A DNA stretch of 64,000 nt from positions 744,001-808,000 of the forward strand of contig JALRME010000010.1 in assembly GCA_026120035.1 (NCBI GenBank). Reading direction: 5' to 3'. A program made the position numbers and the translations under genes. The notes beneath the pieces are model-generated. The model saw only the letters and a list, made by a program, of their open reading frames with translations, did not search any database and was not told the origin of the DNA. How positions within the stretch are numbered: position 1 is the stretch's first letter; each line of letters begins with the position of its first letter. The stretch comes from Coleophoma eucalyptorum. Taxonomy: Eukaryota; Ascomycota; Leotiomycetes; Helotiales; Dermateaceae. This document shows positions 3,401 to 64,000 of this stretch, in pieces.

Positions 3401-5200
3401 TAAGGTGCCTCGGGCCTAGGATCCCGAGCAGCGCACGCAGTAGAGTGCAGACGATCAGACATGTCTCCGAACCCGATATAACCATTCCACGTCCTCCAGC
3501 ATTCTCCATCCTCCCTCAGCTCCTCACGGGGTCCCGTCTGCCGCCAAGCCTGCGTTACAAACGAGGGCAGCCTGTTTTAAGGGAATGCAAGCAGTGACCA
3601 CGGGAGTTGGGTCGTTGGTGGTGGTTGTGTGTGTGTGCAAGACGATGGAAATAGATGATTCGTGCCTGGGTTGTGCTGATCTTACACAAATCACTGGAGC
3701 ACGGGAGGCGCGCAACAGGTGGGCGTCCATCCTTAGTGATGAGACAAGACTTCGGACGACGATATACGTATGCTGTGCCCTCGCTTGCCTATTCAAAGTG
3801 CGCCCTTTACATTCCTGTGTGCAGCCATGGAGTCATTCTTTGGCGTACGGAGTACCTGTATGAGCATGGGGTTACGCATGCTGTAGCAGAGATTAAGGAT
3901 CTGCGTGGTAAACGAGCGAATAGTCTGGTTGGGGGCTTCACTGCAAGCGATATAAAGTTCGGTCTGTTGTGAAGGACGATCAAACCCCGCGAAATCCTGC
4001 CTCTATGCTTGTGATGCTTGCTTTCTCTTGTCCTGGAACTTTGGACCGATGGAAAGAACATGCACCTTGGAAGATGAGTCTCACAGGGTCGGTGGATATC
4101 CTGTCTCTCATGAGAGTTCTAAGGGGCCGTCTTGGTGTCGCTGGGAAATACGTACCATCGTACCATTACATTGCAGGCCCTTAGCGACTAAGTGATCTCG
4201 TCCCTTCCCCGGCCGCGCCTTCTTTGCTTGGCCGTAGAATCTAGCCCTGGAGCTCTTCCCTGTCTGACCTGATCGATTTGAGATTCTCTTGAACATCCAA
4301 TTTCCCATGCTTTCCTCTTTCAGATTCGTATCTTTCCCTGCCAATCTATTTCTAACCGCCAGCTCGCTTGCGGCCTCTTCCTCCGTCGGGAGCCCTGGCT
4401 TCCGTCACGTGTACCCACTGTCCACGTCTGTTTGATATAAAGTGTTTTTATTTTTCTCTCTTTCTACCCTTCCATCCTTCCTTCTTTTCTTCTTCCCATT
4501 TTTCCTGAACATGGTGGATCGACAGGCACAGGGGGGGAAGTGATCTTGGGATGTTTGAGATAAGGTTGTGCCTTTTTGAAATTCTCCTTCACAATCTGTC
4601 ACTACTGGAAGGGAGGATTGCGTGGCTAGGTTGGGATGAGGATTAGTCTTTTAAGTTCGTCCGTTATGGCGTCGGAGAGAGACTTCCTGCCTGAGCTTGA
4701 TGCTCCGTGATATTGTCTCTCGAGCTGACGGTTCCGCTTCAACGTCCTGGGGTTTTTTTTCTCCCGTGGATGAACTCTCTGCCCGCGATATTGCCATGCG
4801 GGCTGTGCAAATATACTAATTGCTCTACATGCCACGCCGGTTCCTCATCTCAGTAATGTCCTTAGCCTGCAGAGATTTTGTACAGCTGGGGGGCTGTGTG
4901 TAATGCTGCCCTTGATGCTTGTTGCTGGTTGAATTTGTGCACAATACTACCAAGCTATGCACCAAGGTCAGGCGCTGTAAAACTACCATTGTCACCATTC
5001 TCATCTGAAGTGGTAGCTGCTTAAAAAGGTTTGGAGTAGAGCTCTCTATGCTCTTTCCCTTACCGAACCGGTGAATCCCTGTTGTTGCTGGCAACCTCCT
5101 AGACTTTGGATGAAGGATTGCTCTTGGTTGGCAATCTATCTCTATCTTGCGGCTTCTGGGACAGGTCCCCGAATCTAGCAACATGATCTCTGCGCGACTT

Positions 5201-58435: not shown

Positions 58436-59874
58436 GATGGGAATTATCGAGAGTAGTCTATCTTTCAGGTCTTTGTATTCATTCAATGTTCAGTTGACTG
58501 GACCGGGGTATTCAAGTGATGATGTTGATCTCAACCACGTCCCTCAAGCTATGTAAAAAGACAACAGTTATGTCATACCTCGTTTCATTGGTCCACGACA
58601 ATGTCTCCCCAACCCCTTTCCAGCTCTCTCGATTTGGTAAAATCAAACCAACCAAACGACTGAAAAAGTAAACTGAATCAAGCAAATCAAACTTGAACAC
58701 AAAAATGGATAGGCGGTCACAGCCTGTAGTAAACCGGAAAGTTAAAAGTGGTGCGCGGCTTTGAACCGGAATTGGCTGGACTCCGGAGACAAAGGAAAAC
58801 ACGGAGTGAGTGAGATCGTTGGATTATCTCGGATTTTCTGCCAGACGTGCAACAAAACTCTCAAACTTGTTGCTTCACGTGACGCGTCATGTGAACTTCT
58901 ACGATAGCAATAGAATGATGTGTGAACTCTTGTGACATAAGTAAAAATTAACAAAATTCCTATGTGAGAAGAATGGTTACTTTTTATAGAACAAGATAGT
59001 TCCCTGATTTCTTGTTGGAAATGAAATCTCAGTTGTGCAATCGGTTCTACCGTAGTCCGGAAAGCCTGATATAATGTTCACGGAGTCCGTTTTTAGGCGA
59101 GCAACACACTTGGCTTCTTATTTCCGACAAAGTTGTCACGGGAAAGTACGTTCATATTCGAGGTTTTTATGCATATCACGTAATAATTTGGAGCTTAATA
59201 TGGCAATACGGTACCATAAGCACTAAGCACTATCCACTCTCTACGATCTCCTTACGGCCTTCTGGATGTTTGTCTCTACAATGCAGGACTAAGTCCATAT
59301 CCAGCGGCGTACATGTGTAGCATAATACCATTGAAATCTTGGAATCCGAAGGTTTGCTTTTTCTTCCGTGTAGGCAGCCAATCTTTTAACAAAATCACGG
59401 AAGTACGATTGGCAGGGTTACTACCCTTGTCACGGTTAGGAAGCTGATTAAGGGTCGGCCGACAGAGAGAGCGGCGGATATGCCATAAGCTACACGACAC
59501 CGATCTAAATGTAGTCTATCAACCGGTCGTCATGCATCACAATGGGATAAGTGTAAAAGTTAAAAGCTAAAAGCTGAATCGAAGCAAGATATTGGTTCCC
59601 TTTGGTGATCGAGATGTGTATTATGTGTGCCACGTTGCATATCTGAATGTAACTGCATGTATACGCGTACTAATGTAAGGTTGCTTTGCCATCACCTGAA
59701 GCGTTGATTGGAAGCATATTCTAAATCGAGTGACAGCCCTGTATACATTTGCAGCTGAAAAGTACTAGCTAGTCTCCACCAACGTGCTGAATAAAGAATG
59801 TTGCATCGCAATGCTAGATACTTCAAACATATAAATGCAGGCTGAGAATCTTGTTCGCAACGACGATTGCAATA
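58436..59874. other. intergenic region
   Basis: About 1.4 kb between divergent genes. Only short chance frames. A palindromic ACGTGACGCGTCATGTGA-like stretch near 58877-58894 could be a CRE/bHLH-type site but is unproven. Confidence 0.4.
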
Positions 59875-60810
59875 ATGGCACATACCATCGAGTTTTTCTG
59901 GAAGCCTGGACACACATGGTCACCAACAGAGCGACAACAGGTTTCGGATGAACTCCGCTCCATTGCACAAGAGTGCTTTGGCAGTGTTCCAGAGTACCAG
60001 TGCTTGGCAAAAACTGAGACAGCATTCAATGACAAGCTTCTGGTGATCGCCCGAGAAAAGACGACCAAAAAAGCCGTCGCGTTCACATCAGCTATTCTTC
60101 TTCCTGTGGACGGCGTCGAAGGTCAAACAGTTGTTCATACAGGCCTCACGTGTATCTTACCACAGAATCAAGGCCAAGGGATAACACATCTGCTTTTTGG
60201 AGAGCTTGCGCTCCATCTCTTCGACGAGTTCAAGTATGGAATCTGGTTCTCGAATCTGGGAGCTGTGCCCAGCAGCCTAGTCAATGTGGGAAACTCGGCT
60301 CGAGATCCGTTTCCTTTCCACAAGGCTCTAGCACCTCATCCTGTACATCTCCACATCGCCCGAACGATCTCGGAGAACTATCGATCAGATATGAATGTTT
60401 CTGAAGAGGGTGTTTTCGATTATAAGACATTTGTAATAAGAGATGCTAAAAATGCCGAATCACCAATGCTCAAAGACCCTAAGGATCCAAAGATACAACA
60501 TAGAAATCCTGCTATGAATGGCTTCTATCATAAGTTGCTTGAGGACAGGGGAAGTGAAGTTTTGCAGATTGGATTCTGGGACCCAATTTATGTCCATCTG
60601 GCCTTGGGGTGGAAGACAAAAGATTGGAGACATATTAAGGTGTGCTCGCAGTGGCCACGTGGAATTCTCATACTAACATAAATTCACTAGGTTCTCTTGA
60701 AGAATAGACCTGCATACCTGGTTCATACATATGGTCTGCGATCGCTTACTTTCACTTTCATGTTGTCGCTATTTGGTATTCTGTACCTGCTTCGGTCAAA
60801 CCTTAGTTGA
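59875..60810 (+). CDS. GNAT-fold-like protein with C-terminal membrane anchor
   Basis: Two exons, join(59875..60639, 60691..60810), 294 aa, spliced GTGTGC..CTAAC..CTAG in frame. The first half has the acetyltransferase-like pattern VVHTGLTCILPQNQGQGITH, where QNQGQG could be the acetyl-CoA loop, followed by helix LLFGELALHLF. Two Asp/Phe-rich motifs after it (NSARDPFPFHKALAPHP) are not standard GNAT. The last exon adds a hydrophobic tail SLTFTFMLSLFGILYLL, suggesting a tail-anchored membrane protein. Start is the ATG of MAHTIEFFWKPG; upstream in-frame codons lack ATG. Enzyme activity is unproven. Confidence 0.72.
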
Positions 60811-62216: not shown

Positions 62217-64000
62217 ATGTCTTCCACCGGCGGTGTCTTCTCCGAGACCCTTCAGTCCATCACTACTACCAAACTGACGGAGCTGTCCAAGAAACGTGCC
62301 ATCTTTGAGAACCAAAAGCGGGCCACCCTTAGGTCCTTGGAACTTGAGACAGACCAAAAGGCCAGGATTTACAAACTCATCGATGGCATCAAGAAATGCT
62401 TTGCCATTAAGGTCAACGCTGGGCGGATTCTTGATCCCCCAATCAACGATGCAAACATAGTTATCAAGCTCAAGAATATAGTCCGCTTCCTTGAGCAGGC
62501 TCGTTATGATCCTTCCATCTCATCAAAGCTGATGCAAGACTGGGAGGATACTATGATTCAGCAATTGAATGTCCAGTCGCTCAAATATCAGTACGCCAGT
62601 CTCTACGGCGAACTCGTCACTGAGTGGCTGTCTGAGGAGAAGGCAGTATCACCTGATACTGACTCTGGTGCAGATATGATGGAAGGTTATGAGTCGATTA
62701 GTAAGCAGGAGAACGTAGAGCGCGATGAGTCGAGAGCTACATGGGAGGCGCTGGTCTTCTCGCCTTTGGAGACAAACCAGATGGCCATTACAACATATCT
62801 GCGGAATCTGTTTGGGAGAAATGGGGCCAACAAAGAAATCCACGGGGCACTCGAAAAGATTCGCACAAGTGTGCGGCATGCTGAAATGTCAATTACCAAT
62901 CCAAATCAGTTCAACGAAACCACACTGAGGTGGACAATCGGCGGATTGCTCTCGTCTGATCTTCTCACAGATGAGAAGAGAGGAGTATTGAAAGACTTCC
63001 TCAAAAATCCGGTCATCTTAAATGAAGTTGCAGATGTCTTGAACATGCGCATGGCTGCTATTGATACATGGTCTTGGGATAGTGAGGTTGCCATTGAACA
63101 AAGAAGACACGTCAACGGCAACTACCACATCTACATGCACGAAGATCTCCTACAAGCTATCTTCCTGCAATATATAGGAGTTCAGTGGTCTGTCTCGTTC
63201 AAGGGGATCTTCAACTCATTCGCAGACAGCGAAGGTGCATGGAAATCACCTCGAAAGAGCATTTCAAAACTTGAAAAGCAAAGACGTGAATACTTCCTCG
63301 GTCATCAACGGAAGATTCCGAGTCTGCAGAGCAAACGCCAAGGGATTTATCGCTCTATCTATTTTATGTCACTGCTGATGGAAAATGTGACTGAGAGCGT
63401 TGAATCACAAGATGGAGAAGAAGAAGCTGAATATGAGAGCTACACAGTTAACAATAAACGCCATCGAGGCCGCATGGCTCTGCAGACTGCAAGAAAATCT
63501 ACTGGTGGCAAGGCACCACGAATGCAATTAGCTTCGAAGGCTGCACGAAAGTCGGCACCTTACTCCGCAGCAGCAGTTAGGGACTGTGAGGAAGAAGACG
63601 ACTTTGAATCTGAACCTGAATCAACAAAACCAAAAACTCGGATGGAAAAGAAACAATTTCTCCTGCATCTTCTGTCATCGGAAATTATTGTCAACACTAA
63701 TCTGTACGGCGAGCTAACCTGTACAAGAGCAGAGTTCGATCATTGGGGACCTTCCCTGCCACATTCAACCATCTTTGCAGTTCTGGGATTCTTTGGTTTC
63801 TCGGGCAGGTGGCTGAGCTTCTTTAAGAGGTTCCTTGAAGCGCCGTTGAAATTCATGCAAGATGGGTCAGATGGGCAGACCCGAAGCCGCAAGAGAGGTG
63901 TCCCCCAGTCACATGTCTTGAGTGAGGTTTTTGGAGAAGTTGTGCTCTTCGCGCTGGATTATGCTGTCAATCAAGCCGCGGATGGAGCTCAGCTACATCG
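62217..64000 (+). CDS. reverse-transcriptase-like cellular protein with embedded histone H3 tail, 3' end outside window
   Basis: One continuous open frame from ATG 62217 to the window edge (594 full codons, no stop). The N-terminus is helical and basic (SETLQSITTTKLTELSKKRA), then a long helical region with IHGALEKIRTSVRHAEMS, WTIGGLLSSDLLTDEKRG, ADVLNMRMAAIDTWSWDSEV and YMHEDLLQAIFLQYIGVQWS. Residues 423-448 copy the histone H3 tail (see findings), flanked by basic KRHRGR and acidic segments. From about residue 476 the sequence is RT-palm-like: LPHSTIFAVLGFFG, FFKRFLEAPLKF, then RGVPQSHVLSEVFGEVVLF, which resembles RT motif 4/B (G-x-P-Q). The catalytic DD motif would lie beyond the edge. No retrotransposon context, so a domesticated, rvt-like gene is the best guess. 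The RT assignment is moderately sure. Confidence 0.72.
   Translation, partial: MSSTGGVFSETLQSITTTKLTELSKKRAIFENQKRATLRSLELETDQKARIYKLIDGIKKCFAIKVNAGRILDPPINDANIVIKLKNIVRFLEQARYDPSISSKLMQDWEDTMIQQLNVQSLKYQYASLYGELVTEWLSEEKAVSPDTDSGADMMEGYESISKQENVERDESRATWEALVFSPLETNQMAITTYLRNLFGRNGANKEIHGALEKIRTSVRHAEMSITNPNQFNETTLRWTIGGLLSSDLLTDEKRGVLKDFLKNPVILNEVADVLNMRMAAIDTWSWDSEVAIEQRRHVNGNYHIYMHEDLLQAIFLQYIGVQWSVSFKGIFNSFADSEGAWKSPRKSISKLEKQRREYFLGHQRKIPSLQSKRQGIYRSIYFMSLLMENVTESVESQDGEEEAEYESYTVNNKRHRGRMALQTARKSTGGKAPRMQLASKAARKSAPYSAAAVRDCEEEDDFESEPESTKPKTRMEKKQFLLHLLSSEIIVNTNLYGELTCTRAEFDHWGPSLPHSTIFAVLGFFGFSGRWLSFFKRFLEAPLKFMQDGSDGQTRSRKRGVPQSHVLSEVFGEVVLFALDYAVNQAADGAQLH

Follow-up and report, generated by a model that had tools for sequence, protein, structure and literature searches.

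A histone H3 tail in the hypervariable loop of a reverse-transcriptase-like protein of Coleophoma eucalyptorum, and the tails found at the same site in related fungi

The 64,000-nucleotide stretch of Coleophoma eucalyptorum DNA considered here (the window; positions 744,001 to 808,000 of contig JALRME010000010.1, GenBank assembly GCA_026120035.1) ends inside a gene for a protein related to reverse transcriptases (RTs). A large loop of this protein contains residues 5-30 of the histone H3 tail with a single substitution, and the corresponding loops of relatives resemble the H3 tail, the H4 tail, the C-terminus of the ribosomal P-stalk proteins, the N-terminus of a Sub2-like helicase, or none of these. 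The loop is tentatively read as an exchangeable display of tails from the cell's own proteins, with lysines partly stripped, serving as bait or pseudo-substrate, a reading that leads the field of explanations while commanding somewhat less than even confidence.

The last open reading frame (ORF) of the window, beginning at 62217 on the forward strand, encodes QTARKSTGGKAPRMQLASKAARKSAP at 63483-63560 (residues 423-448). As an earlier, sequence-only reading of the window had claimed, these residues match H3 from Q5 to P30 at 25 of 26 positions, the sole change being K18 to methionine; both ARKS motifs are kept and the K4 context is lost, reading MALQTARKS in the window's copy, with RTKQTARKS retained in many relatives. 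A 42-residue query around the block found two matches in the genome: one was its own locus, and the other was the H3 gene, on contig C57. Compared with that gene, 9 of the 25 shared residues have the same codon and the other 16 a synonymous one, and 1 codon differs in sense; the two are unlike at 12 of 17 fourfold sites and identical at 59 of 78 bases, all in the DNA of this genome. Diverged codons beneath 25 of 26 identical residues argue for an H3 likeness that is old or maintained at the protein level, and recent capture from the H3 gene is rejected for this genome because the codons differ. According to the sequence-only reading, a recent accidental insertion would be recognized by relatives lacking the block together with near-identity to the local H3 gene; the block is indeed missing in some relatives, yet its DNA has diverged from H3. 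The same reading was right that this is neither a histone gene nor a fusion of a whole histone, as Pfam finds no histone domain in the 960-aa protein, the block is predicted to be disordered, and an RT palm lies next to it.

The block recurs across the family. Three homologue searches, each contributing its best 120 of the 657, 658, and 714 proteins that passed E 0.001, gave 294 different proteins; the loop (query residues 403-476) was cut from 295 rows, comprising the query and its 294 relatives, and 287 loops remained after 8 shorter than 50 aa were dropped. A loop was called tail-like if its score exceeded those of all 200 shuffles of the same loop, with reversed sequences as a control. An H3-like block had been present at the same site in 82 of 121 rows in a first survey, and H3 tail likeness was called in 171 of the 287 loops (reversed control 26), H4 tail likeness in 72 (control 17), likeness to the P-stalk C-terminus in 70 (control 24), and likeness to the Sub2 N-terminus in 32 (control 8). 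H2A and H2B were called in 2 loops each, with reversed controls of 6 and 2, and H3 and H4 likeness occur together in 45 loops. An H3-like block therefore stands at the same place in many relatives, and some are without it. Likeness to the C-terminal domain (CTD) of RNA polymerase II (Pol II) was rejected, with 4 of 287 loops called against 3 in the reversed control and a weak match to RPB1 (E 0.78) for the most similar loop, P0263.

A count of six-letter words made without guidance over the 295 loops, which took in words of four or more different letters and no more than four acidic ones, ranks pieces of H3 at the top (QLASKA 58, ASKAAR 57, QTARKS 53), with the H4 word GAMRHR (33), the P-stalk word DEDMGF (22), and IDYSDE (18) lower down. 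Exact H3 runs reach at least 10 residues in 79 of the 171 H3-like loops, at least 15 in 21, and at least 20 in 9, the longest being 31 residues in P0149. The histone likeness of the loop also explains the names 'Histone' or 'histone H3' given in public records to some of the proteins (P0004, P0015, and P0042).

Other tails can be recognized in individual loops. A PDB search with a piece of the P0208 loop returned the H4 tail (E 3.8e-4), and with a piece of the P0237 loop all 26 matches were P0/P1/P2 C-termini (best E 0.26); nothing in the PDB matched a piece of P0149 containing DLIDYSDEE. The Sub2-like helicase gene of the C. eucalyptorum genome begins MSAEEDLIDYSDEELQ, and the LIDYSDEE of the P0149, P0161, P0166, P0233, and other loops equals the N-terminus of this helicase, the pattern [DN]LIDYSDE[ED] being present in 7 of 295 loops. 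The P-stalk motif of GF type occurs in 27 of 295 loops, mainly in Aspergillus and Penicillium rows, and loops in the range P0228-P0292, such as P0292 (A. nidulans AN6430.2), contain internal copies of the P-stalk C-terminus, EESDDDMGFGLFD. A search of the C. eucalyptorum genome for a P-stalk gene found none, but the 27-aa query is too short to tell. Copies of the H4 tail often have methionine in place of K16 (GKGLGKGGAMRHRRI), as in the loops of P0129, P0176, P0201, P0208, P0216, and others, and the loops of P0108, P0115, P0121, and P0126 are in-register H3/H4 chimeras (e.g., TTGAKRHRKILASKACRKSAPSTGG), as if the basic patch of H4 had replaced H3 13-19. A Gln/Met-rich piece, YQMQLM or LEQQNK, is found in 7 of 295 loops (P0023, P0024, P0025, P0030, P0033, P0073, and P0218). 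According to precomputed Pfam annotation, the models of P0227, P0231, P0237, P0238, P0262, P0292, P0196, and P0201 are fused to a fungal transcription-factor or glutathione S-transferase (GST) domain, and these fusions are probably joined models of neighbouring genes.

The histone copies do not retain all residues equally. When loops are aligned to H3, likeness spans R2 to S31 and then drops; R2, R8, R17, and R26 are kept in 85-90%, and the lysines in 91/125 (K4), 76/140 (K9), 64/151 (K14), 57/159 (K18), 91/149 (K23), and 66/139 (K27). All six are kept in 4 of the 85 loops where all six align. Among H4 copies, R17 is kept in 71 of 72 and R19 in 72 of 72, with K16 kept in 22 of 72 (methionine in 38), K12 in 5 of 60, and K20 in 45 of 71. 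Over all H3 positions, 453 of 908 lysines are kept versus 497 of 568 arginines, and over all H4 positions 94 of 265 versus 159 of 188; counted by H3-like loop, arginine is better kept in 151 and lysine in 3. Sets thinned to rows less than 60% identical give 84/157 lysines versus 92/101 arginines for H3 (29 loops) and 16/46 versus 30/38 for H4 (13 loops). In the protein outside the loop, 41 lysine columns have an average conservation of 0.60 and 0.5% methionine, and 45 arginine columns average 0.71. Changes of lysine go to methionine in 80 of 455 cases, compared with 59 of 770 for other non-aliphatic letters. Such loss of lysine with retention of arginine suggests that the tails are kept in shape, their arginines and small residues held and their modifiable lysines partly removed.

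The history of the loop was followed on a FastTree phylogeny built without the loop and rooted at its midpoint; thinning at 90% identity left 232 of the 287 rows for it. H3 likeness (138 rows) changes 43 times on the tree and 73 times in shuffles, H4 likeness (49 rows) 27 and 45 times, and P-stalk likeness (39 rows, with an additional score threshold of at least 45) 21 and 37 times, so the tail traits track descent yet turn over often. H3 likeness lies on either side of the midpoint root, and the tree does not separate gain from loss. By source name, H3-like loops belong to Clonostachys (P0149), Periconia (P0112), Aspergillus granulosus (P0231), and Lecanora helva (P0272), which represent Sordariomycetes, Dothideomycetes, Eurotiomycetes, and Lecanoromycetes.

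The scaffold around the loop is an intact, intronless ORF of 960 aa, completed by contig bases past the end of the window. The ORF listing and own-genome search place the 5′ part of the gene at 62217..64000 on the forward strand, the gene ending beyond the window at position 5099 of locus L011. The AlphaFold2 (AF2) model and a fold comparison indicate an RT fold. The model begins with a mainly helical N-terminal region (residues 1-290, 62217..63086), followed by a finger hairpin and the next helix (residues 291-324, 63087..63188; strands 291-297 and 303-308, helix 311-337), which presumably correspond to RT motif 2. The large loop, hypervariable in the family alignment, occupies residues 395-476 (63399..63644) between the finger hairpin and the first palm strand, that is, between RT motifs 2 and 3 in a numbering that is our own, and a motif A-like palm strand and helix are found in model and alignment at residues 499-516 (63711..63764). 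The placement of the H3 block (63483..63560) just ahead of a palm-like part, proposed from the sequence, agrees with the model, which has a predicted local distance difference test score (pLDDT) below 50 over residues 421-458 and ordered palm elements from 475 on. Pfam reports RVT_1 alone, below cut-off, and NCBIfam gives group II RT matches that are all sub-cut-off. An endonuclease, a trait of R2 and long interspersed nuclear elements (LINEs), was considered; Pfam gave only the weak RVT_1 match, and the fold match spans the RT part only. Motif C of the window's gene (residues 594-605, just past the window) reads MDSD with serine at 598, versus MEDD in the closest relative; aspartate is found at 598 in 286 of 295 rows and glutamate or aspartate at 508 in 259 of 295. 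The C. eucalyptorum protein may be a weak or inactive polymerase, while its ORF and mimic stay intact. The best match among those listed is a Coleophoma crateriformis protein with 84% identity.

The assembly (45.3 Mb, 101 contigs) contains three diverged RVT-like loci, 39-45% identical, and an own-genome search found no repeated element. The two paralogues (L020 and L021, on contigs C58 and C34) have short loops and no histone likeness, and the C34 paralogue is split over two reading frames by an intron or a break. Downstream of the RVT-like gene, beyond the window, lie genes for a GH28 family member and a C2H2 zinc-finger protein (L011:5174-6437 and L011:7194-8666, both on the reverse strand), and an upstream ORF of 276 aa (window 59851-60681, forward strand) has no Pfam match at E 0.1.

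The scaffold has prokaryotic kin. The PADLOC profile RT_UG37, a prokaryotic family that PADLOC files under DRT and so lists with defence RTs, matches residues 11-785 (E 2e-68; profile 5-657 of 778) and also matches a paralogue and the three relatives tested, so by profile comparison the scaffold is a near-full-length homologue of the UG37 RTs, from which it differs in being fungal. Prokaryote genomes were also scanned twice by pattern, which is less sensitive than the UG37 profile, and none of the 104 and 79 stretches picked out was confirmed as a relative; no relative was found in viral contigs (127 stretches) or plasmids. Among PDB sequences, the family profile matches DRT9 best (9ioa, E 1.3e-8 over 555-647); this palm similarity is shorter and more distant than the match to UG37, and R2 and group II intron RTs fit the fold better than DRT9 does.

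RVT genes are RT-related cellular genes of fungi, rotifers, and bacteria, described in the available excerpts of PMC5718144, PMC10680173, and PMC3520738 as widespread, stress-linked, and obscure in origin, with no molecular target named there. Their hallmark is loop 2a, a large insertion between RT motifs 2 and 3 (PMC5718144, in excerpt). The C. eucalyptorum gene resembles them in its RT fold, its large loop between motifs 2 and 3, the lack of a detected endonuclease, its status as a fungal cellular gene, and its prokaryotic kin, the last through the near-full-length homology to RT_UG37; it differs in having three diverged copies in this genome rather than one, low copy but not strictly single. 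The product fits a cellular, non-mobile RT-like protein of the RVT/UG37 kind, and we infer that UG37 is the bacterial branch of RVT. Of two further sources, PMC4920403 uses RVT1/RVT2 for transposon genes, an unrelated matter in the text available, and the accessible part of PMC12632851 has rvt in its references only and does not mention UG37.

A conserved scaffold and a hypervariable, disordered loop with recurring tails of core machines and avoided lysines look like a display site. In the favored reading, the disordered loop that separates RT motifs 2 and 3 would display the H3 tail in this species and H3 and/or H4 tails, a P-stalk C-terminus, a Sub2-like N-terminus, or nothing of the kind in relatives. 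A protein that grips or attacks such tails would bind or alter the loop, and this binding or alteration would recruit or switch the polymerase. With fewer lysines, the bait would tend to escape the acetyltransferases and methyltransferases of the cell itself, and its import by Kap123 would be weakened. Bait for foreign attack is placed slightly ahead of regulation by the cell's own factors, in view of the tails of P-stalk and Sub2-like type and of the relationship to UG37. The genome has a pre-SET gene and chromodomain genes, so own binders may exist. Plant immune receptors carry integrated decoys, which invite comparison in their manner of working only, variable pieces of host targets being shown in a conserved scaffold, and which share no homology with the protein described here.

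Several observations weigh against this display reading. None of the H3, H4, or P-stalk likenesses is found in 63 of 287 loops, including rows from Botrytis and Sclerotinia, and some of these fungi must therefore do without the function. The likeness to the P-stalk is partly a matter of acidic composition, as its reversed control and the small number of loops with the specific motif indicate. Membership in UG37 is kinship and no proof of defence. Finally, since the window's copy has serine where the 286 rows have the motif C aspartate, a polymerase-switching bait may not work in this species.

An unlikely but serious explanation is that the loop acts as a pseudo-substrate and inhibits the histone writers of the cell itself, in that tails with lysine changed to methionine, arginine, or glutamine occupy acetyltransferases or SET methyltransferases and couple the level of the RVT protein to chromatin state. 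Lys-to-Met oncohistones occupy histone writers, and it is the bias of lysine toward methionine, with methionine at H4 K16 in 38 of 72 copies, that favors this explanation, together with the loss of lysines and retention of arginines. It has no place for the P-stalk and Sub2-like tails, however; K9 (76/140) and K27 (66/139) are still kept in many loops, and the loop is rich in methionine in general.

The sequence-only reading proposed that methylated K9 and K27 mimics are bound by chromodomains of the HP1/Polycomb type and tie the protein to heterochromatin. Both ARKS motifs are intact in the window's copy and the genome has chromodomain genes and a pre-SET gene, which makes methylation of this particular copy possible; a preSET_CXC profile had no match, with controls equally blank, so that a PRC2 may still be present. 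As a conserved function the proposal is improbable and not supported, because the family does not keep K9 and K27: where both positions align, both lysines are kept in 23 of 110 loops and neither in 29, and 12 of the 171 H3-like loops have a pair of ARK[ST] motifs. Relatives moreover carry quite different tails in the loop, and with H4, P-stalk, and Sub2-like tails among them, H3 would be one of several displayed peptides.

Use of the tails as nuclear import signals is more doubtful still. H3 1-28 and H4 1-34 bind the karyopherin Kap123, whose pocket residues are H3 K14 and K23 and H4 K16 (PMC5677370, in the excerpt available). These pocket lysines are often lost, with K14 kept in 64/151, K23 in 91/149, and H4 K16 in 22/72, and a role as Kap123 signal is disfavored on that ground. 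P-stalk tails are not known to be import signals.

It is very unlikely that the tails are a by-product of capture, with pieces of abundant mRNAs for histones and ribosomal P proteins copied into the loop by the enzyme or by recombination and having little function. The source proteins are generally regarded as highly expressed and the loop is hypervariable, but in the one genome compared the block and the H3 gene share 25 of 26 residues and disagree at 12 of 17 fourfold sites, and lysines are lost where arginines are not. Resemblance by chance or composition is scarcely credible and, for H3 and H4, refuted by the long exact runs: the loops do have many charged, Ala, Gln, and Met residues, but the shuffles preserve composition, H2A and H2B are called in only 2 of 287 loops each, runs of at least 15 and at least 20 exact H3 residues occur in 21 and 9 of 171 loops, and the genome search likewise supports the earlier judgement that a 25/26 match is beyond chance.

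RVT proteins and histone mimics are both established. Among the papers listed by searches of the open-licence literature, none describes the two combined, tails being exchanged, or lysines being lost from them, and none deals with histone tails in RVT or RT proteins, although a description may exist elsewhere. The excerpts of the RVT papers (PMC5718144, PMC10680173, and PMC3520738) do not mention tails, of histones or of anything else, as content of the loop. The viral ARKS-type mimics of PMC10833455 and the cellular candidates for H3K9 mimicry of PMC10611923, as far as the available parts of these sources describe them, share an H3-like ARKS context outside a histone. Theirs are short motifs, whereas the loops described here match H3 exactly over as many as 31 residues, can hold H4 or other tails in the same position, and have often lost the modifiable lysines.

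The loop is a direct lead to the partners of RVT proteins, which would be sought among binders of histone tails and the ribosomal stalk. In its boldest form, possible but rather less likely than display as such, the favored reading would give fungi of several classes an RT-based sensor akin to UG37 that shows exchangeable H3, H4, P-stalk, Sub2, and perhaps Pol II CTD tails with lysines partly stripped, so that foreign effectors or viruses seizing them would be trapped or would set off the polymerase, in a decoy-type RT defence of eukaryotes. If decoy display is true, eukaryotic cells would have a previously undescribed means of detecting attacks on their core machinery, derived from kin of defence-listed bacterial RTs. 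If the pseudo-substrate explanation is true, nature would have assembled in this family a set of histone tails lacking lysines, revealing which letters a binder needs.
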